A DNA stretch of 64,000 nucleotides. It comes from Branchiostoma floridae (taxonomy: Eukaryota; Chordata; Leptocardii; Amphioxiformes; Branchiostomatidae). This document shows positions 12,134 through 60,690 of this stretch, piece by piece. The notes below the pieces were generated by a model that was not told where the DNA came from, ran no database searches, and was given only the letters and a program-made list of their open reading frames with translations. Made by a program: the position numbers and the translations under genes. Every line of letters begins with the position of its first letter. The stretch's first letter is position 1. The DNA is taken from the NCBI RefSeq assembly GCF_000003815.2, contig NW_023365769.1:89923-153922 (forward strand). Reading direction: 5' to 3'.

Positions 12134-15100
12134 TCTGGAGAGTTCACGGTGCCGAGTGACATGGGACAGCTGATTGAAGATGAGGACCAGAAGCGAGAGC
12201 AGAGTAACATCCCGCAGGCATCCTTCAACTTCATCAACTCCATCATCGGCTCAGGCATTATAGGTCAGAACAGTCCTCCAATGGAGACAAACTACAAAGA
12301 AATTACCAGCAGGGTAGAAGGCTAAATGAAGAACACAGTATCACAAGACTTAGATGATCTTGTACCTACACCTAGTAGATTTTCCTCGATTTCTGCACAG
12401 TTGTAAGACATGCAAGTAAGGCTCTATGCAAACTTTTGCAATCTTGTTCAAACAGAGCAGCTCTTACATGAAATTTGGAAAATGTTAACAAAGAAATAAG
12501 ACCAGGACTATTTGCTAATTTAGAGGGGTGGAATAGCATTCATTTGTGGTATGGCAATGTTGGAATGCAAACTTTTACAGAGACAGATGGTCAGCTTAAG
12601 TTGAATTGATTGCTGGTCTACATTTAAGTTGATGACAGGTACACATATCTTGCTGATGCACTTTCTTCATCCGACCCCCAGGATAGACCGATACCTGCAC
12701 TCATGTTTTTTCCAATCCATCATTGAGTTTAAGGAAAGTTTTGATAATGTAGAAAACACACTTTTAGAATGAACAAATATACTGGTACTTCTGAATGTTT
12801 CCACGTGTTTCTCATTAGGTATGCCCTATGCCCTGAAGCAAGCAGGGTTCCCCATGGGGGTTTTGCTGATCCTGATTGTGGCCTTGATAACAGGTGAGCT
12901 ATTTGTGTTTACACTGTTTATTTTCTTGATCACTGATTTAAAAATGAACTTGATCATTGACTTAAAAAGCTCCTTTGATCATGATTTAGAATGTTCTTTG
13001 AAGTAATATACCATAATTATGTACATTGATCCNNNNNNNNNNNNNNNNNNNNNNNNNNNNNNNNNNNNNNNNNNNNNNNNNNNNNNNNNNNNNNNNNNNN
13101 NNNNNNNNNNNNNNNNNNNNNNNNNNNNNNNNGAGTTTCTTGTCAATAAGATTGCTCAATATCTTTTATATGATAGAATTTTTCTTTCAACATGTACAGA
13201 TAACACTTTGTTTTCTTGATATCATAGATGGTTGAATGACTGTCTAAATAAAACTTCTGGTCCATCTTGCACAGACTATTCAGTGATTCTTCTTATACGT
13301 GGTGGGAACCTATCAGGCACAAAAAATTATCAGGTAGGGGATTGTTGTTGCAGCCTTTGGTTGAATTATAGTACTGTTGTATGATAGTGATAACATTATT
13401 ATCAAAGTTATTTGGTGATATTAATTTAATATTAGACATTTTCCACTCGAAATCATGATCCGAATGTTTCATTTTCTTCCTTCATTATACATGGTTAGAT
13501 TACACATAAAACGTATATTCAGAGCATTATATCATGCTTCTACAGGACCTGGTTCGAGCTGCCTTTGGCTTCCCAGGGTTTGTCTTCCTGTCCATAGTCC
13601 AGTTTGTCTACCCTTTTATCGGTAAGTGTGTGGGAGGGAAAACAGCAGACATGATTGCACTCCCATAGGCTGTAATCTCGTGCTAATTGTCTCCGGCTCT
13701 ACAAACAGCCGGGTTAGATTGCCTGATTTCATGTACAAGATGTATCTTTTAGTTTGTGTAGTTTGTGTACTAAAGTTTGGCCTAATGCTGTTATGCAAAT
13801 TAAACCATATGCACACCAATCTGTCAGTGTCTGCCCAGCATTTAATATCAACCTTGAGCTTGCTAAGCTTAATATAACCTTGAGGTGTTAGGTATCAAAT
13901 TTGTATTAGTTTTGGGGTTAGGTAGCAGGAAAAAGGTTAAGCCAAATGAATAAATGAACCGTACACTGCAAAAACAGTGATTTTCAAAACTCCAAACTTT
14001 AATGACAATGACAATAACATTAAGGTTAAAACTCATACAGAAGTATTTGCAGAAAGTCAGAAGAAGAAATTGCTCGTGGATGCAGACAGCTGTATGCCAA
14101 AGAAACCCAATCTGCAACGACCTAGAGATTGGACTGAAATATTGGTTATGGAGTTAGGTAGTAGAGAGAAGCTTCAGCAAAACAAATCTTATAGTAACAC
14201 TACAAAATAAGGGTGATTTTCAAAACACATTAGCGACAATGACAATAACATCAAGTTAAAGCTTGTACAGAAATATTTGCAGATAGTCAGAAGAAGAAAC
14301 TGCTCGTGGATGCAGTCGTATAACAAAGAAACCCAATCTGCAACGACCTAGTGATTGGACTGAAATTTTGGTTATGGAAATAGGTAGTATAGAGAAACTT
14401 AAGCAAAATTAGAAATATTTGCAGAAAGTCAGAAGAAATTGCTCGTGGATGCAGACAGCCGTATGACAAAGAAACCCAATCTGCAACGACCTAGTGATTG
14501 AACTGAAATATTGGAAGCAATTGCGCCTCATTAAGTTAATGGCAGGGGGGGTAATACGCTTGTAAATTGCAGAATAATGGTGCTGCAGGTCTCTCTAGTG
14601 GAGCGTTTGTGATTAAGTCAGTTATAAGCTGATTAGAAATGACTGGGGGAATGATTGCTTGACTTAAGAAGCCCAGCATGGTTTGTGCACAGGTTCTAGT
14701 AATATTGATTCTAAGGCTGTAAGGAGGAACATGACTTGGAACAATTCAATTGGTAAGGATTTAAGACTCAAGATACAAAATCCTAGAGGTTTAGGTCTAT
14801 TCATTGTTAACATGATTCCTTTTTCCTATAGCAAGCCAAACATGGGTTTGCTTATCTTTACCTGAGTATGATATACCAACTATAAAGCCATGATTTAATC
14901 AGGATTCATAGGGTTCATACTTTAGTTTGCAAGTTTGCACTGCAATCTCCCTCTCACAACAGGGGTAACTGGGGTATCAGGGAAAACATTGACAATGACA
15001 TTTTTTTTTCATAAATTAGTATCGCTTTACTCAAGCCTTGACTTGTTCTTGGATCCTCACAGTTGATTGCAATTCTTTAAAAGATGAAAAATGCATGATC

Positions 15101-18100
15101 ATGAATCATTTTATCAAACACTGCTTCCTAATAGATAGGTATTCACTGTGAGTCGTATTCTTCCCTGAACCAGCAATGATCAGCTACAACATCATCACAG
15201 GTGACACCATTACCAAGGTCATGGTTCGAGCTGCCAGACGTAAGTATTCTCTACATGTATCTGATTTCTTTTGTTACCTTTTCTTTTTGTTTCTTTCAGC
15301 CATGATTAGCTACAACATCATTACTGGAGACACCATCACAAAAGTCATGATGAGAATTTCTGGAGGTAATAAAATCTTTATATTGCATGGTACTGTCTTT
15401 TCTTTGGTGCTTGCATATTCATTTTATGGTTTATTGTAGAATTTGTGAAATACTGCATTTACTAGAATTCATTTACTGTTTAAGTATTTTATCATGAAAG
15501 TTGACTGCATCATGAAAATTTTCACAATTTTCCTACAAATGAATTTTCAAAATTAATGAAGTGATATCGGAAAGATTTTATAGCGTGTTGCAGTATTGTA
15601 ATATTGGTAAAGTACAGACTTTAAAACACCTTGGCTGTTACCAATTTTGTTTATTTAGAATAATATAAGTATTCTTTTCCGTACGTTTTGTATGCTTTTT
15701 CTTCTTTTACTGCTGAAAAACAGTGGATGCTGTTTGAAACGTCTAATAAATCATATGCTTATGTCCAGTGGTAAAGATCTTACTTACATATCTAAACATC
15801 CTGGATGACTTATCTTCACAAACGTATTGGTTAAGTAGTGCTTTTCAGAATCAAGTAATAATGGGGACAAGATAGTTCTAAATACTTCTGTATGGCATAA
15901 TTACCTTTTCATATCAAGAGAACAATAATCCATTTGTTGCCTCTAAATTTGTCATACCTGTCCTTGGTGCTGAAAGTACAGAGTCAGACACTTTTCTATA
16001 CCCAGCATCACTAGCTTGTGCTCATTTTGCCTAACTGTGCAAAAATGTGTTGCATTTCCAGTGGAGGTGGATGAGGAAACTGGGCAAGTCTATGGTACAG
16101 TCTGAAATGTGTCCCTACAACTGACATGACTAAAATGACTAACTATCAAATTCTCAGTAGTATAGCTTCTACTCTTGGTGCTGTTACCCTGGAATTCATA
16201 GAGCTTAGAAATAATGACAAATTAATGAAAAAAGTCATGAGTTTCACATATTTACTCACAATCTAAAAGTTTGTTGTTACTCCTTACACGAATAACTAAC
16301 ACTCACATTCATACTTCAGATGCCTGTTAGCCAATACTAGTTAGCCAACTATCATCTTTCATTATGCAGATAATAAGCTACGAGTGAATGTGATTTGCAA
16401 AGTTCAATATAAAAACCAGCATATTATCCTTCCTCTGTAATACTTGATCAACATAGGCAGAAATATCCCACTGTTTTAACATGATGGACATGCATTATTG
16501 GAAAGGATAGATGAAAATCAAAAAGCCTAGAGACATCTTAACAAAGACACAGCCTCTGTGACCAAGTTCCATGGCACTACATATGTTCATTTCTAGAGGC
16601 ATTAATGCCTTTGAATGTTTCATATGTTTTGTTACCAGTCACAGAGACCAACATCCTGGCCAACCGTTACTTCATCATCTGTCTGTGCACCCTTCTGGTC
16701 ACACTGCCACTGTCTCTGTACCGCAATGTTGCAAAACTGGCAAAGGTAAGTTCAAGACCTTCACATACTCCAATGATGTTACTAGGTATTATGTTGACAT
16801 TTGCATATCAGACTTATTTGTAGTTTTTTCTTTCTCAGTATAAATGATCATGAGGTTCAATTTACAGTAAATTATCAGCTAGCACAACTTGTATGTTTTT
16901 ATAGATGGTAACGATAAGAGAGTTGATGTTTTTTTATTGCACTTCCTTCTCCACAGGCCTCCCTGTGGGTTTATGATATAGACGGATTACAGAGAGTTGA
17001 TGTTTTTTATTGCACTACCTTCTGTACAGGCCTCCCTGTTTGCCTGTCTGCTGGTGGTGTTCATCATCATCGCAGTCATCATTAGATCCACAGACATGCA
17101 CATGTAAGTCTCATCTACAACAGTTACAGGGCTTCTGCATACTTAGACGTTTCAGCAGCAGCTTAACAGTGCCCCCTTACAATATTCTTACATACTGCAC
17201 TGCAGAGTGTAGCAAGTGCACTTGACACTATCAACTATCCATAGTTGACACTAACCCAGACTCTATAGAAAAAACAACTTTGAGGTGGTTTAAAACAAAG
17301 ATTGAGTTAGTTTATTGTTCTGTTGATCCTAATCACTTTTGTTGTTGACTTTTTCCAGCCCTCCTACAGAAGATGCCTACACCTTTGCCAAGCCAGGATT
17401 TGCACAAGCAGTGGGCATCATGGCTTTTGGTGAGGCAAAAACCTCAGAGTCTGTGCTTTGTCCTGACATTATTTGTAACATTCATAGCCAAAAAATTGTA
17501 AATTTGCATATCAAATCTCAGTGGTATCTACTTCTCTAATAGGTATGAGTTATTCCAATTTGCTGAATTGTTAATTCAAAACCCATTTTGATACTGTTAC
17601 TCAGTCACTGTGTACAGTTTATTATTTTCAAGTCAAGGCCAAGTTTCCCTACATTACCACTATCTTTAATACCTATAGTATGTTTTCTCTATTACAGAAT
17701 GCCCAGATATTGCATGATTTAATGTATCATGGATCTACCGGTGCAATAGCTGAGTGGGTAGAGTGTTCACCTTGCATTCCGTAGGTCATGAGTTTGATCC
17801 CCGGCCGAGTCATTGAGCACTGAGCATTCAAAAAAGAGAATGAAAGTTGAACTCACAACACCTGTGGACAAGCCCCCCTGCTGTAGTGATTGCACAAAGT
17901 TGTGTGGCCAAGGGCCACTGAAACGGAGATGGGTGCTACCTTATGCACCATCTGGTTCTGGAAGAATGAGAATCCATATTTATCCCCACAGCCTTCGTCT
18001 GCCACCACAACACCTTCCTGATCTACGGTTCGCTGGAAGAGCCCACCGTACACCGCTGGTCCATCGTTACGCACATCTCCGTGGTCGTGTCGTTCATCGC

Positions 18101-21100
18101 CACTGTCGTGTTCGCTGCCTGTGGATACGCCACCTTCACAGGGTTTACCCAAGGTCTGGAACCACTCGCTTTATGCATGGTGTCTTTTTTGACTCCCCTT
18201 AAAAACTCTGACTGCTTTCTGGTTATATAGTCAAGAAAGTTTAGAAAGCTTCTTGATTTAGACTAAGTCTTGAAATAATGAACAATTCACATGTGAAGGG
18301 AGATTACTAAACCTCTTATTCTTCATTGTTTGTAAACTTAACACTGTCAGAATGATTTTAATCTGATTTACTGAAACACAACATTTTTTTGTATTTTCAC
18401 TGTCAACCTCTTTGGCCCTCCTCACAATGAATTGACCTGTGACCCCAATGGTGCCCGGAAGAGTGTACTGCTTCTGGTCATTGATGATTAATGTGTGGCT
18501 GACATTAAACATTATGTATGGCCTCTTCCCTCCCTTATGCAAGGGTCAGATTTCCAATCTGGGGCCCGGCCAGGCAGTTTTAGGGATTAGATAAAACACA
18601 AAAAAAACACAAAACATGCCTTAAAGACCAGAAATCTGGACCCAGGGTCCACAATAACCATAAAACTATATAGATGCTCCCTGCTGAACTCTGCCAGGAG
18701 GTTTGAAAGCTGAATTGACCCTCCAGACCACATAAACTAATTAGAAGCCATGGGGAGTCCAGCCAGTGTCTGCTGCCAGGAACAAAGGGATGGTATTACG
18801 ACATAAGGTTGAAAGTTATTAGCATATTAACTGTCAGATCTGTTTGAAAAAATTTTTCCACTACTTGTCAACAAAATGCTGTCAAACAAAGCAAAATGAC
18901 ACATTAGCTTGCTGCAAGGCTAAAGACACCATACCATATTTTCTACAACATTAGGTTTGAAGGAAGAAATTTCAGACCAGTGTTGAAAATTCAAAATGTT
19001 GCCAGATTTCTTGTGCCTTTGAATTCAGTCTAGAAGTACATCTGCACTCTTTCCTGCACTCTCTACCTTTGTCTGAGTTACTGAATGTCAGTATCATTGC
19101 CATTAGGATCTTGCCTTTCAGAGGCTATGTGGTATCTTGTTTTGAAATAAGAGCTGTCACCCTCATTGTATCTATATAGAATAAGATCATTTATTTTGGT
19201 AAAGATTAGTCCCTCTCAAATTTGTATTTCTTTTCAAATAGTTATGAGCTTCCTGTTGGATTTTGCGTGTCTCCAAATAGAACTTGTAATCGTAGCACCG
19301 TCTTTGCAATGTGAATGAGTAAAATTGCTTGTACCACCAGCAACAAGGGTATAATATCTCAGTGCCCCAATGTTTCCCTTCCACAAAGTTCCAGGCTGGG
19401 CTTAGTGGGTCTGTGGTCATTACTTCACATGATTTCTGTTTAGAGAAAGCTTACAAATTTACTTTTTATGTGCAAACAAACTAAAACTCTTCATCTATCT
19501 GTAACTATTTGAACTCTACAGACTAGGTATGAGCCCTGCTCCAGCACCCTTGTTCACTGTATGAGAGCCTGTTGTAGACTGAACCCGGTAGTTTACGTTA
19601 GCCGAATTTATTGGGTGATTTTATAGTACCACCTTGGTCTTTAAAATGTGACCCTAGCATAGCTTAGTAAATAAATGGTCAATTCAATGAGGCCATGTTG
19701 AACTTAAGATTATTTATCTTGTTGTAGCAGAGATGATATTTGTGTGATTTTCCCAGGCGATGTGTTGGAGAATTACTGCCATGAGGATGACCTGATCAAT
19801 GCTGCCAGGTTCTGCTACGGTGTCTGCATCATGCTGACCTTCCCTGTGGAGTGTTTTGTTTGCAGAGAGGTGAGACTTACACCAAGAAGGTTAAATGTAC
19901 TCTGTGACTGCTTTTGTATTCAAAGCACTATAATGATACCTAATTATTTCCACGATAAATGGAGATATTGTTTTGGTTGTGTATGTGCCACTGTGCGTGC
20001 GTGCGTGCGTGCGTGCCTGCATGCATGCAGGCGTGCACATGTTTGTCCATCCCCAAAAATCTGGATTTCACATGAAATTGATGAAAATGTACTACTGTAA
20101 GCATAAAATGACAGATTTAACAATGAAAATTATACAACACTGACTCCCAAGCTATGAGTGTAAAGGAAATCGAATTAAACCTAGGGACAGCCCTGTATGG
20201 TTTTGTAATTGGCTTTCTCTCACTCCAACTGACTGTAGAAGTTTGTGACTGTTATGTCATGTCCATCTTTGTCTTTTATTCAGGTGATTGAGAATTTCTT
20301 TTTCCAAACTGCACAACCCACAACTACACTGAGACACGTGATTGAGACCGTTATCATCGTGGGGGCGACTCTGGGAATCTCATTGGCTACTGACTGTCTG
20401 GGCATCGTTCTTGAACTGAATGTAAGTGTGGAGATAGAGGATATCGGGTTACAGGGGGCAGCCCTATATTCCCTATATTCTAACAGCCCAATGTTCTGTC
20501 GCCCTCATGTTTCAATAGCATACTCCTACATTTCGAAGCCCATATGGTCCAAGACCTGTGTTTCGACGCTTTCATTTTAGGGTTAGGGTGTATCGGAACA
20601 CTCCATGGAGGGTTGTAACCGATGTACATTGTACTTCTGTACAGGTTAGACTTGTACAGGTTAGACTTGTCAAAGTGGCTTTCTCTAAAGTGAACGAAGG
20701 AAAATTGTGTTACAGAACATTGATCCAAAGATAGCTTACCTAGTAGGAACAAAGTATTTTACAGTAAATCAAAGACAGGAAACTGCTCTTTAACAAATGT
20801 ACTGGACTCACCTGTTGCAGGGCACCCTGGGAGCCACCCCGCTTGTCTTCATCCTCCCGGCTGCTTGCTACATGAAGCTGGAGGAAGGAAAGGTCTACAG
20901 CGCCAAGAAGCTCCCGTCTCTACTCATCGTCATCACCGGGGCCATCGTCATGGTGATAGGGTTTATCATGGCCGTCCTCAGTCCGCAGGGGTGCTCGCAC
21001 GGGAAGGAGATGTCCTACTGTCACGCCAACGACGTCAACGCCACTGATTTTTCCACCTTCATTCCCAGTACAGAGATGCTTGCCAGTAGCACTGTTGCCT

Positions 21101-21156
21101 CTATGGTCAGCAGTACTACCCCTCCGTTTTCCAACTTCTCGTCATTAGGACCATAA
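12134..21156 (+). CDS. SLC38A11: SLC38-family amino-acid transporter, SLC38A11-like
   Basis: Predicted multi-pass permease of the AAAP/SLC38 (SNAT) family, moving neutral amino acids across a membrane. Exons by splice signals and phase: 12134-12263, 12819-12893, 13275-13333, 13546-13621, 15174-15239 or 15300-15365, 16639-16745, 17030-17103, 17359-17429, 17992-18153, 19757-19869, 20284-20421, 20821-21156. All phases join. From the ATG at 12161 the protein is 459 residues; the frame stays open upstream, so a 5' exon could extend it. Family hallmarks are NSIIGSGIIG (TM1, about residues 26-35), AMISYNIITGDT (TM3), LPLSLYRN, CHHNTFLIYGSLEEPT, TFTGFTQG and DCLGIVLELNG. The order and C-tail (GCSHGKEM.YC, then Ser/Thr-rich with N-glycosylation sequons) resemble vertebrate SLC38A11 more than SLC38A1-A10; this assignment is from memory and needs a tree. 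Gap 13033-13132 falls in an intron, and phase shows no coding sequence is lost there. Confidence 0.9.
13033..13132. other. Assembly gap (100 N)
   Basis: A run of exactly 100 N, the usual placeholder for a gap of unknown size, in the transporter intron between 12893 and 13275. The exons on both sides join in phase. Confidence 0.99.
13975..14515. repeat. Three-copy tandem repeat in transporter intron
   Basis: Units start near 13977, 14214 and 14411, and are progressively shortened. Shared words in order are 'gacaatgacaataacat', 'atttgcag(a/at)agtcagaaga', 'ctcgtggatgcag', 'aagaaacccaatctgcaacg' and 'attgga(c)tgaaat'. Confidence 0.85.
15174..15239 (+). CDS. SLC38A11: SLC38A11-like alternative exon 5a
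   Basis: 66-nt exon, preceded by 'ccctgaaccag' and followed by GTAAGT, phase 1 in and 1 out. It encodes the TM3 segment AMISYNIITGDTITKVM and then VRAAR. Exon 5b, 60 bp downstream, has the same length and phase. The first 17 residues are identical in the two exons although eight codons differ at synonymous positions, so both have been kept under protein-level selection. Only the last five or so residues differ (VRAAR here, MRISG in 5b). The 5b form is closer to the usual family sequence. Confidence 0.85.
15300..15365 (+). CDS. SLC38A11: SLC38A11-like alternative exon 5b
   Basis: 66-nt exon with a strong pyrimidine-rich acceptor (ending 'tttgtttctttcag') and GTAATA donor, phase 1/1. It repeats the TM3 coding of exon 5a and ends KVMMRISG, which joins to Val at the next junction and gives the R-I-x-G-V pattern expected of the family. 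The 60-bp intron separating it from 5a is very short for this gene, which would disfavour direct 5a-5b splicing. Including both would keep frame but repeat 22 residues inside a membrane segment. Confidence 0.85.
16062..16094 (+). CDS. Possible optional 33-nt microexon of the transporter
   Basis: Bounded by 'tgcatttccag' and GTACAG, phase 1/1, it would insert 11 residues (VEVDEETGQVY) between TM3 and TM4, in the loop after the alternative exon. Without it, the 5b-to-16639 junction aligns to the family without a gap, so if real it is a cassette exon adding an acidic insert. The donor is weak. Evidence is limited to splice signals, frame and length. Confidence 0.35.
16918..17039 (+). repeat. Duplicated intron-exon boundary
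   Basis: A segment of about 50 bp running from 'gagagttgatgttttt' through the pyrimidine tract and 'acaggcctccctgt' occurs twice (about 16918-16970 and 16992-17039). The downstream copy leads into the true exon starting at 17030. The upstream copy gives an acceptor with exon start 16957. The 73-nt offset is not a multiple of three, so using the upstream acceptor would shift the frame. Confidence 0.8.
17740..17965 (+). mobile_element. tRNA-derived SINE, copy 1
   Basis: The head has an A-box-like 'tagctgagtgggtagagtg' and a B-box-like 'gagtttgatcccc', as in tRNA genes. The body ('ccccctgctgtagtgattgc', 'gtgtggcc(a)aagggc', 'ggagatggg(t/c)gc') matches copy 2 at 24686-24966. It lies in the transporter intron in sense orientation, and its 3' end is within about 30 bp of the acceptor at 17991. 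The 3' tail is less clear than in copy 2. Confidence 0.85.
19588..19632. repeat. Short dispersed repeat, partner at 38.05 kb
   Basis: 'tagtttacgttagccgaatt' plus 'tattgggtgattttatagta' recurs in inverted orientation at about 38055-38095, nearly identical over 40 bp. Both copies lie in non-coding DNA. Confidence 0.75.
19993..20035. repeat. (GCGT)n / (GCAT)n microsatellite
   Basis: Alternating purine-pyrimidine run of GCGT units grading into GCAT and back, in the intron after the exon ending at 19869. Confidence 0.9.
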
Positions 21157-32301: not shown

Positions 32302-32401
32302 NNNNNNNNNNNNNNNNNNNNNNNNNNNNNNNNNNNNNNNNNNNNNNNNNNNNNNNNNNNNNNNNNNNNNNNNNNNNNNNNNNNNNNNNNNNNNNNNNNN
32401 N
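32302..32401. other. Assembly gap (100 N)
   Basis: Exactly 100 N, the second placeholder gap, between CNOT9 and the RING-protein gene. Confidence 0.99.
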
Positions 32402-52100: not shown

Positions 52101-53736
52101 ATGAGATCATCAGACAATCAATGTTTTCAGAGTCGCTAGTATTGTTCTGTCAGTTTCGGACAGACTTTGAGTTTAAGTGCTTGTATACTTAGATTGCATT
52201 TCACATCGCGTAGATGATTAATTAGTTACTGTAACGGTAATAGATTCTACCAACTATTGTCACTGAAACCTCTCGGTTTTTTAGGCCACATACAAAAAGA
52301 AAAGAAAGATGACAAAACAAGTTATATCTTAAACCATTTAAATTCTTGGTACGAACCAACGTACGGATGGTTGAACCGATCACGCTTGAGGAATCAGCTA
52401 AGTTTAGGTCATAAATAATTCATCTTAAAGTTTTTGCTCTAATGAACAGCTCTAGTCGTGGCGTCGCAAACAGCCTGGCAAAGAAAGACGCACAGGATCT
52501 AGGAGGACTGAAAATGAATTCACAATGAAGACAGACTGTGATGTTTGCACGTAATTTATGGGAGGCTCAAAGTCGTCCAACGGATGCCGGTTCGCAGATG
52601 TGTAAGGGATCAGCGGTTCACGCCAACAAGGTTATCGATCTTGAGGAAAAGTTCTGTCGTCTGAGAGACAAGTCCATTAATCATAGATGCACCTTCGGGA
52701 GAGTTATCTCTCTTGGTCACGAAAGGAACTAACCTCCCCCTACGGTCGGGGGCGAATCTTTAAGACATCTTGGTCAAAATTATCTTCAACGTTAAATTAT
52801 GAGCAATTTGAAAAAGACAATAATCCAATGACTATGATATTTCACAAGTATCAATATCAAACAGTAAAAGAGCACAACTTGACGTTTTATATCAAACATT
52901 GATGGTCAAAATACAAGGCAACTTATCCACGCTTTCGACCTAAACGAACTATAGAGGACAGGGTCCCTACGTGATTTCAATAAATGGGTCCTTTCAAACA
53001 GACCGCATGGTCTTTTTAGCGAATGCCCACAAACGCCCACTCTAGAGAAGTCCGCGCTGCACGAATCTCATTTTTTTGCTTGGAATATGTCCACGTTGTG
53101 CTCCCATGTATTAATCCTGAGTTTCAAGTCAATCCATTGACCCGAAGTGACATAAATCAAAGTTTTCGATTCTCGATGGTCTTTTTAGCGAACGCCCAGC
53201 AAAATGTCTTTTTAGCGAATGCCCACTATATCCACAAAAATATCGGCCGTCGCGCAACGACACCTAAACCTACCGCCACAAACATGTTCAAGATGGTGTC
53301 CCATTGATGTGTACGGAGTTTCCGTGCTTTACAAGCATTTTAAGTCCCTGTTTTTGGTCAAAATGTACGGCGACGATACTACCATACTTTAACTATAGCA
53401 ATTCAAAATGGCGGGCACTAGTCATGTGACCTCCTTGCGGGACTGTTCTATAAGTATCGCGGGAGGGACTGTTGTAGCATAGCTTCTCATACAACCATTT
53501 TAGAGTGAATTCTGAACAAGATTTTCATTTCATAGTGCTATCATCTGACTGATATTTACAATGTGGTCATTTTTTCTGTGCTATTATTAGTACCCAGGTT
53601 TGAGGAACTTAGTGCAAATTTGGATATTGATTCACCTCAGTGCCCAATTAATGTACAAAAGGCTCAGACACATTAGGGTTATAAACCTGAATAGGGGCAG
53701 GTAACCAATACTAGAAAAACATAGCTATTTATTATT

Positions 53737-57565: not shown

Positions 57566-58711
57566 TGTCATTTATTAAGAAGAGAAAAAAACAATTTGTT
57601 TGTAAATGTTAATAAAGGTACATTTTACAATTGAAATTTTCTACGTCATAACTAAATGTTATAAAACATTTCCTTTCTGTACTCAGAAGAGGAGCCCGCT
57701 TGCGCCATGTTCCAACATTTTATTAGGCTATTGATAGCATGTGGTCACATTTTACTGCACATAAATAATGCAATTAATATTGTTTATGTGTCAACGTCTT
57801 CCAATACTTTAAAAATATTTAGGAAGTGAAACGAAATACATTTTTGTATTTGAAATAAGTTTGTACACACTGTAACAGATACTCATCTAATCAAATCCTC
57901 ATTGTAACAATGTTTCTGTGATAAATAAAGATAAGAAAAGTCCAGTTTGGTGAAGAGTTATTATTATAATGTAAATAGTATTGTTAATAATAAATAGCTA
58001 TGTTTTTCCAGTATTGGTTACCTGCCCCTATTCAGGTTTATAACACTAATGTGTCTGAGCCTTTTGTACATTAATTGGGCACTGAGGTGAATCAATATCC
58101 AAATTTGCACTAAGTTCCTCAAACCTGGGTAATAATAGCACAGAAAAAATGACCACATTGTAAATATCAGTCAGATGATAGCACTATGAAATGAAAATCT
58201 TGTTCAGAATTCACTCTAAAATGGTTGTATGAGAAGCTATGCTACAACAGTCCCTCCCGCGATACTTATAGAACAGTCCCGCAAGGAGGTCACATGACTA
58301 GTGCCCGCCATTTTGAATTGCTATAGTTAAAGTATGGTAGTATCGTCGCCGTACATTTTGACCAAAAACAGGGACTTAAAATGCTTGTAAAGCACGGAAA
58401 CTCCGTACACATCAATGGGACACCATCTTGAACATGTTTGTGGCGGTAGGTTTAGGTGTCGTTGCGCGACGGCCGATATTTTTGTGGATATAGTGGGCAT
58501 TCGCTAAAAAGACATTTTGCTGGGCGTTCGCTAAAAAGACCACCGAGAATGGAAAACTTTGATTTATGTCACTTCGGGTCAATGGATTGACTTGAAACTC
58601 AGGATTAATACATGGGAGCACAACGTGGACATATTCCAAGCAAAAAAAATGAGATTCGTGCAGCGCGGACTTCTCTAGAGTGGGCGTTTGTGGGCATTCG
58701 CTAAAAAGACC

Positions 58712-60690
58712 CTCCCTCAAACAGACCCATTATCCTCTCTGTGTCCTTGAATGGGTCTGATTGCACTTTATTGATCTTTCTCCATTTGATTTCGAGGTGA
58801 TATCGGTTGTTCAACTGGGGGAAAGTCCGATTGCTGGATTTCATTCTGAGTGTGACTTTTCTACCAATGATGTAAATTTGCAGTAATTTCCAACTTGCCA
58901 GGAAAGGTGGGTTGTTTGAAGCCGCGTATATGATCGGATTGCAAAGTTAGTGATAGTATCTCTTTACAGGACGATTTTTATGTGACAATCACGTACAATT
59001 TACCAGTACGCTGCGTCTGTCCGTCTAAATAGTTGAATAACAAGACTTTATCTGGCGAGGCGGCATGCCACTTTATGCATCCCTCAAATCTATATCATTG
59101 GCTAATGCCATCCGTTTCAGATAGGCAGTACGTGTATCACTCGTTCTCATTGAAATGTCGAAAATGGCGCTTTTTTGGTCGAAAAATAAATCGGCTTTAT
59201 TTTTAGTGAAAACTACCTGGCTGTTTAGGAAAATTCCTCTTTTAACCATAGCCAAAAAATGGCAACTTATTATTTTCGGTCCCATTGGTAATACATTACA
59301 GGGCGGGTAACAAACGTTATCGGTAACGTTTGTTACAACAGTAAACTTTATCCTGTTTTCTTCTAAAGGACTTACCTTATTGACTACATCATTTAGGTTT
59401 AAGTGGATGTCCCAAGGAACATTTGAAAAGTGGGCAGCTTTTTTACACCAGGTCAAATAGAAAGCTTAGACAGCATCGAACAATGGTAACGTTTGTTACA
59501 GTCATTTCTGAACAACATTTTGTTAAGCAAGGTGGGATACAAATAACAGTCAACAACCCTTTCTTGTTTCTTTAGGAAGCCAGGAAAACTGTACAGCGTC
59601 ACAAAAATGGTCATTTCTAGTCTTATATATGGATAATATAACCGTGGCAACCATCGTACTCGTGGTGGTAACGTTTGTTACAGAATCTGGCGACAGGCAT
59701 AAACCACCTCACACAGCCTCCAAGATCAGTGACAGGAGCGATCTGACGTGATCGGGCAGAGGGCCTTGGTAGCTGGTTTCACCTGCCGAACAATTATTCT
59801 CAACTGAATTGTTACATTTTTGGCTACTATTTCAATTCTTCGTTTTTTCTTAGGCGACAGCCATTTTTTAGGGTGTGAAATCCGACTCGTGGCTATAATA
59901 ACCATCTAAGCCATCAACCAATACGAATGTTGTTGTGCATCTTTTGTAAAACATTACAGGGGTTATGGAAAAATGAAGGAACCAGTGATGTTGTCTGTAA
60001 GTTTCTCCATATCAAGCCGTTAAGTCAGGCGACAGCATTTCGACATTTAAATGAGAACGAGCCGTATATGGTAGCTAGATAAGCATGCGCAATTCAAAGT
60101 ATCGCTTAAAACTGTGATGCATATTTACCTTAAGTGAGTACTACTGTACGTGCATTGATACTCTAGCTTCGTCATTGTTGTAGAACGTCACGTACAAATT
60201 TTGAGGCTTGCAAGCGACTTGAAAGTTTGTGAACAATAGACATCATCGGTCCACTTTGAGAATTCCCCTTTTCTCTCATTTGACTCTTGCCTCTCAAAAC
60301 TCCTTTTGCATAACCATGCCATGAGGGCATGGTCTGTTCATCTAGCAAATGGTAAGTAAAAGAAGAATAACATGTACTAGACGTAAATTTAGCATGCTAG
60401 AAATATCCTTACATCTCTATGTCAATTGCTTTGCGTTCTAGATCTTTCATGACCTTGGGTAAAAAATTTCCAACAACAGGCTGTGTAGGGATCATGCCTG
60501 TTTGATTGACGCTAAGGCTGGCAAATGAAAAAAAATAGGAACGCGTTGACCTGCCCTACCTCCGTAAGAACAAAGTATCTTCCTCGCATGGCTGTCACAG
60601 CCTATCGTTCTCTATGTGTAGGCAGGCTACAAGCCACTTCATCACTGACAAGACAAGCCTCTTAAGGTCTTATCTTTAGAAAAGGGATGG
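58712..60690. other. Non-coding stretch with a palindromic motif cluster
   Basis: No exon I can support. The longest frame here (59073-59456, minus, 127 codons) resembles no family known to me and has no flanking gene signals. The notable content is four copies of a GTAACGTTTGTTAC motif at 59.3-59.7 kb. Confidence 0.45.
59307..59681. repeat. Cluster of GTAACGTTTGTTAC motifs
   Basis: Exact copies at 59323-59336, 59486-59499 and 59668-59681, plus an inverted copy with one mismatch at 59307-59320. The motif is itself an inverted repeat (GTAAC-N4-GTTAC). Spacing of the direct copies is 163 and 182 bp. Confidence 0.85.

Follow-up and report, generated by a model that had tools for sequence, protein, structure and literature searches.

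A transporter gene of the SLC38 type in amphioxus carries two adjacent homologous exons, here called A and B, each encoding the second half of the third transmembrane helix (TM3) together with the beginning of the loop that follows. It is likely, in our judgement, that this arrangement goes back to an old tandem duplication within a single-copy gene, that steric exclusion across the short intron between the copies keeps them out of the same transcript, that competition between splice sites sets the choice, and that the product of the choice is a tuned helix end. Mutually exclusive use, with one of the two exons in each mRNA, is well supported by the sequence features described below, if unproven. 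The gene lies within a window of 64,000 bases, by which we mean the whole stretch of DNA analysed, corresponding to the last part of a contig of 153,922 bases (C211); the genome searched for further copies comprises 513,431,437 bases in 431 contigs.

The transporter gene

Exons were modelled from position 12134, where the gene model starts, and read as a single open frame closed by a stop codon, 12134–21156 on the plus strand, consisting of 11 shared exons together with A or B (Table 1). Each isoform has 415 residues, every junction is GT-AG, and the five junction coordinates proposed in a preliminary description of this DNA all agree with the model. Introns other than the one between A and B measure 212–1603 nt. 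Both spliced isoforms match the Pfam domain Aa_trans equally and over nearly its whole length (residues 23–409; 226.6 and 226.5 bits against a cut-off of 25.6; E 5.7e-67 and 6e-67). A search of solved structures returned three relatives, comprising two SLC38A9 sequences, which include the nearest (6c08, E 6.5e-10), and, as the third and last, proton-coupled amino acid transporter 1 (E 2.2e-8). The earlier label 'SLC38A11-like' is therefore sound as to the Aa_trans family, with SLC38A9 as the closest solved relative, while the assignment to SLC38A11 within SLC38 is presumed from resemblance to vertebrate sequences. Two papers refer to SLC38A11 as the family's orphan (PMC6985444, PMC5952004).

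Table 1. Positions within the window of the transporter exons, the intron between the alternative exons and the adjacent TGCATG motifs.
Feature	Position	Strand	Description and evidence
Shared exon 1	12134..12263	+	N-terminal segment and TM1; open frame with GT-AG; spliced protein matches Aa_trans
Shared exon 2	12819..12893	+	End of TM1, and TM2; gene model
Shared exon 3	13275..13333	+	Gene model
Shared exon 4	13546..13621	+	Directly upstream of the exon pair; encodes the first TM3 half; phase 1 at its end
TGCATG (RBFOX-type)	15092..15097	+	Upstream intron, 76 bases before A; putative function
Alternative exon A	15174..15239	+	AMISYNIITGDTITKVMVRAAR (+L at junction); acceptor ..CCTGAACCAG, donor GAC/GTAAGT
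A–B intron	15240..15299	+	60 nt; one yTnAy match, at +25 (CTGAT); 3' end rich in pyrimidines; exon frame stays open
Alternative exon B	15300..15365	+	AMISYNIITGDTITKVMMRISG (+V at junction); acceptor ..TTTCTTTCAG, donor GAG/GTAATA
TGCATG (RBFOX-type)	15384..15389	+	Downstream intron, 18 bases after B; putative function
Shared exon 5	16639..16745	+	Directly downstream of the exon pair; TM4
Shared exon 6	17030..17103	+	TM5
Shared exon 7	17359..17429	+	Gene model
Shared exon 8	17992..18153	+	Gene model and genome search with the protein
Shared exon 9	19757..19869	+	Gene model and genome search with the protein
Shared exon 10	20284..20421	+	Gene model and genome search with the protein
Shared exon 11	20821..21156	+	Stop codon included

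Elsewhere in the gene an acceptor region has been copied in tandem, at 16930–16966 and 17003–17039 (37 nt, 92% identity, 73 nt apart). If the upstream acceptor were used, so that the exon began at 16957, the exon would be 73 nt longer and the shifted frame would soon reach a stop; this may be an alternative 3' splice site with an unproductive outcome. A run of 100 N (13033–13132, unread or masked) lies in the intron that separates shared exons 2 and 3; the whole window has 200 N, the last at 32401.

Two homologous exons under coding constraint

As first described, the pair consists of two exons of equal phase (1-1), each 66 nt long with its own GT-AG acceptor and donor, 60 nt apart. They are identical at 49 of 66 nucleotides and 18 of 22 residues. 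With the split Ala codon included, the leading 17 codons specify the same residues in both despite eight synonymous differences. The exons end in VRAAR and MRISG respectively; the Arg common to the two endings is encoded by synonymous codons, and the other four positions of this five-codon tail hold every replacement among the 22 codons. At the 3' junction the codon divided between exons also changes, reading Leu when A precedes it and Val when B does. The comparison is between the two copies themselves; apportioning the changes to one or the other would take an outgroup.

When eight random single-base changes were placed in the 51-nt core under three transition biases, the probability that all eight would be synonymous was 2.8e-6 to 1.4e-5, according to the bias, and such an outcome was seen in none of the 200,000 simulated sets at each. 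Chance similarity of the two cores is ruled out by these probabilities and simulations. By the Nei-Gojobori method the core has a dN of 0 and an undefined, saturated dS, so the claim that both copies are under coding constraint stands. The 60-nt stretches neighbouring A and B are by comparison 37% and 35% identical in ungapped alignment; with flanks so unlike, the similarity that is left is that of the exon itself. Given unrelated-looking flanking introns and saturated synonymous change, the pair is old, and has been held by selection except in its last five codons. An ancient tandem duplication of the exon for the second half of TM3 would have given rise to A and B.

The same features mark neither copy as recent or drifting, since eight of eight core differences are silent, synonymous change is saturated and the flanks look unrelated, and A in particular combines a GTAAGT donor with an acceptor of ordinary quality and an unbroken frame. 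They make it very unlikely that one copy, for which A would be the best candidate, is a dead or rarely used remnant of the duplication and that the other alone is made into protein, a reading that can point to the less pyrimidine-rich acceptor of A (65%, against 95% in B) and to its tail, which departs from what we take to be a vertebrate-like exon end that B has kept.

Joint inclusion and probable mutually exclusive use

The 60-nt intron offers one match to the yTnAy branch-point pattern, and the branch point predicted there is only 25 nt from the donor of A. The available text of PMC5740500 treats a donor-to-branch-point distance below 50 bp as steric interference, and counts 57 of 629 human clusters as such; at 25 nt against <50 nt, the A–B intron falls on the steric side of this threshold, which derives from human exons and is applied here to a predicted branch point. 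The geometry for steric exclusion that had been read from the short intron is thus present. For scale, all 64 introns that could be estimated in myosin genes of this genome are at least 111 nt long (148 rows; these are rough values, many of them taken from related genes that lie next to one another); a subset of 99 of the 148 rows gave 53 introns with a minimum of 111, and four further myosin rows carry 198–309 extra bases within a match. A branch-point match at +25 and an intron minimum of 111 nt together imply that the joining of A to B should be hindered. In mechanistic terms, U1 on the donor of A and U2 at the branch point of B, some 25 nt apart, would not both be assembled; such a clash on a 60-nt intron would prevent A from being joined to B, and every mRNA would retain one copy, A or B. 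Incompatibility of U2 and U12 sites was considered and discarded as a cause, the GTAAGT and GTAATA donors both being U2-like by eye.

The reading frame provides no safeguard, being kept when A and B are both included, when neither is, and when the 60-nt intron is retained, so that exclusion would depend on sterics and regulation alone. The ends of the A–B intron also look strong, with a GTAAGT donor core and an acceptor that, at 95% pyrimidine, is the most pyrimidine-rich of the gene; joint inclusion is therefore to be expected if the spliceosome can remove an intron of 60 nt. These two properties are what favours treating both exons as cassettes that can be joined, with 22 extra residues, or skipped together. 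We think this distinctly unlikely, for it would require the splicing of an intron of 60 nt, with its branch-point match at +25, beside 64 myosin introns none of which is shorter than 111 nt, and because doubling or losing the second half of a helix that belongs to the transport core should disrupt the topology. A comparable topology argument is made for exon pairs encoding transmembrane helices in the part of PMC5740500 available.

Steric hindrance might also be replaced as the cause of exclusion by competing RNA structures, with docking and selector pairs in the manner of Dscam1. A perfect 15-nt inverted repeat, 14034–14048 with 15880–15894, does bracket the exons, and a repeat of this length was reached in only 4 of 500 simulated intron pairs; its arms lie outside both exons, however, and would loop out A and B together, so that it cannot select one of them. 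Between 15060 and 15480 the RNA folds no better than shuffled sequence (z 0.99; matched or surpassed in stability by 87 of 100 shuffles), and with no stable fold in this interval local structure finds no support as the chooser. We accordingly regard an exclusion based on RNA structure as highly improbable. The upstream arm of the inverted repeat sits inside a diverged intronic repeat (family D4); the intron upstream of A contains diverged repeats over 13904–14551, many of them about 230 nt apart, of families D1, D2, D4–D6 and D8.

Choice between A and B

Under steric exclusion the choice would be set by competition, with the better donor on A and the far better acceptor on B. Donor scores are 2.87 for A and 1.23 for B, on a scale built from human-consensus frequencies that serves for ranking only, and acceptors of the other exons of the gene have pyrimidine contents of 60–80%. 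Two shared exons have donors about as low as that of B or lower (1.36 and 0.69). The acceptor of A and the donor of B hence lie within the range of the gene, and can be called weak only relative to each other's counterparts, A against B. B would probably be the default exon.

Two TGCATG motifs flank the pair, one in each adjoining intron (Table 1). They were spotted by eye and afterwards counted among 11 motifs, post hoc; both lie this close at 144 of 63,300 window positions, or about 2.5% after multiplication by 11. The motif shows no enrichment in the window (53 found against a shuffle mean of 47.1, with 21 of 100 shuffles having as many). Given this history and the absence of enrichment, the placement is a lead only. 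RBFOX bound downstream of an exon activates its inclusion. In C. elegans, RBFOX acts through UGCAUG on mutually exclusive exons, and an upstream site represses egl-15 5B, according to the portion of PMC3585155 available. An RBFOX-type factor may likewise shift the choice to B, with A repressed from upstream and the donor of B activated from downstream. Taken together, the splice-site contrast and the placement of TGCATG suggest a regulated switch. That the switch belongs to the cephalochordate lineage, that an RBFOX-type factor and steric exclusion between them select the outer end of TM3, and that gating, coupling or trafficking differ by cell type as a result, is a more speculative and, as a whole, rather unlikely extension; such a switch would be the first known to us in the SLC38 family.

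Predicted consequences for the protein

The alternative exon corresponds to residues 114–135 of the 415-residue model, and the hydropathy peak of the helix to residues 99–117. As the two overlap only at the end of the peak, the exon accounts for the second half of TM3 and for the first part of the loop after it; the term 'TM3 segment' used in the preliminary description holds for the former and has to be narrowed for the rest. Compared with solved structures by sequence, the exon found one unrelated match (E 0.15), and the matches to SLC38A9 and proton-coupled amino acid transporter 1 skip the exon stretch. From the topology of the fold we take the variable end of TM3 to be non-cytosolic. The substrate arginine of SLC38A9 sits among TM1a, TM3 and TM8, as stated in the available parts of PMC9994763 and PMC9906736.

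The buried helix, which lines the substrate pocket in the family, would thus be common to both isoforms, and these would differ only at the non-cytosolic end of the helix and in the loop, VRAAR-L against MRISG-V, with one Arg more in A. An identical helix with variation at its end speaks for tuned gating, affinity, coupling or trafficking over a new class of substrate, and on this evidence altered gating, coupling or trafficking appears more likely than a new substrate. The tail of A includes a minimal R-x-x-R string, which we take to be furin-like.

If the extended reading, with its RBFOX-type switch, is correct, exchange of A and B would be a natural two-state experiment on the role of the TM3 helix end. 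Since the swap is confined to four residues and the junction residue, it would offer a clean handle on a tuned part of the transport core, with the 60-nt intron as a simple steric switch.

Copy number, paralogs and assembly

With the whole protein as query, 13 of 14 rows of the genome search fell on the transporter locus and the remaining one had an E of 0.36; with the exon region, three of five fell on the locus and the others had E values of 0.30 and 4.7, in both cases among the best candidates scored. Among these candidates the genome yielded no further copy of the gene, and no third copy of the exon was seen in the window or, among the candidates scored, in the genome. The nearest paralog found, on contig C1 (L046), has a single TM3 exon in the 10 kb examined. 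By eye its 5' end looks the same (AG, CC, ATG), its 3' phase seems different and the exon is longer. The seemingly matching 5' boundary makes that boundary seem older than the A/B pair, and it seems that the duplication came after the split from this paralog, or that the paralog lost a copy. At a second locus (L050), which we assume to be an A7/8-like member of SLC38, the TM3 stretch is unsplit, and one tblastn match covers query residues 80–128. At the remaining paralog loci tblastn produced no clear match across the exon.

An assembly error that merged two alleles or two loci is hardly credible as the origin of the pair. The gene does lie on a contig of 153,922 bases, where the contigs that carry the paralogs measure 17–35 Mb, and a run of 100 N stands in a nearby intron; yet the flanks of A and B look unrelated, unlike those of alleles, no second locus was found among the candidates scored, and a high-copy element of the contig is 99% identical on many other contigs, which places the contig in the same genome.

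That element, a stretch of about 735 nt at ~53000–53736, recurs at 99% identity in many places (best 40 of 4225 candidates), and a similar reading frame is found on the opposite strand at 58415–58729. Several of its copies form opposite-strand pairs 3–4 kb apart (on C13, C3 and C8, among the candidates scored), an arrangement resembling long terminal inverted repeats from a mobile element that was active not long ago. Between ~55500 and 57600 there is a long array of short repeats, open in places, with a repeated peptide like LLTCTVSYLVCNQRKYT in the list of open reading frames.

Comparison with known systems

In titles and the openings of abstracts, a search outside which most subscription papers lie, we found no report of a pair of mutually exclusive exons in an SLC38 gene, nor, in the same material, any report of such an SLC38 pair in amphioxus. 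In the available text of PMC11047122 SLC38A11 figures as an expression marker, and mutually exclusive exon events are not tied to it there; PMC12306624, as far as its available text goes, concerns cell types and not exons. Mutually exclusive exons in transporters are already established, and it is the SLC38 instance that we did not find described.

The A/B pair resembles the exon 4 variants of SLC12A1 (NKCC2), which are likewise mutually exclusive, tandemly duplicated exons of a transporter gene. Those variants encode TM2 and alter ion affinity. They differ from A and B in belonging to an unrelated transporter family, in affecting another helix and in numbering three, the third copy being mentioned in the available part of PMC9741552. 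The same source gives ion transporters as 6 of the 12 human gene families in which tandem-exon substitution occurs in fly and worm orthologues too, a pattern to which the present pair would add an SLC38-type amino-acid transporter. SLC25A3 and SLC39A14 are also solute carriers with mutually exclusive exons, although these are human genes with unrelated folds, and use of the SLC25A3 exons has been demonstrated from RNA (available text of PMC5740500).

Within amphioxus, the IIIb and IIIc exons of Fgfr are tandem-duplicated and mutually exclusive, as established by RT-PCR, but they encode part of a receptor Ig domain and are regulated by Esrp; IIIb and IIIc are common across chordates and IIIx is specific to cephalochordates, which again distinguishes them from A and B (PMC5703972, from the part available). 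Finally, the C. elegans pairs unc-32 7a/7b and egl-15 5A/5B combine mutual exclusivity with UGCAUG in a flanking intron and control by RBFOX; they are other genes, in which regulation has been tested, whereas here the likeness lies in the motifs (PMC3585155, in the portion available).
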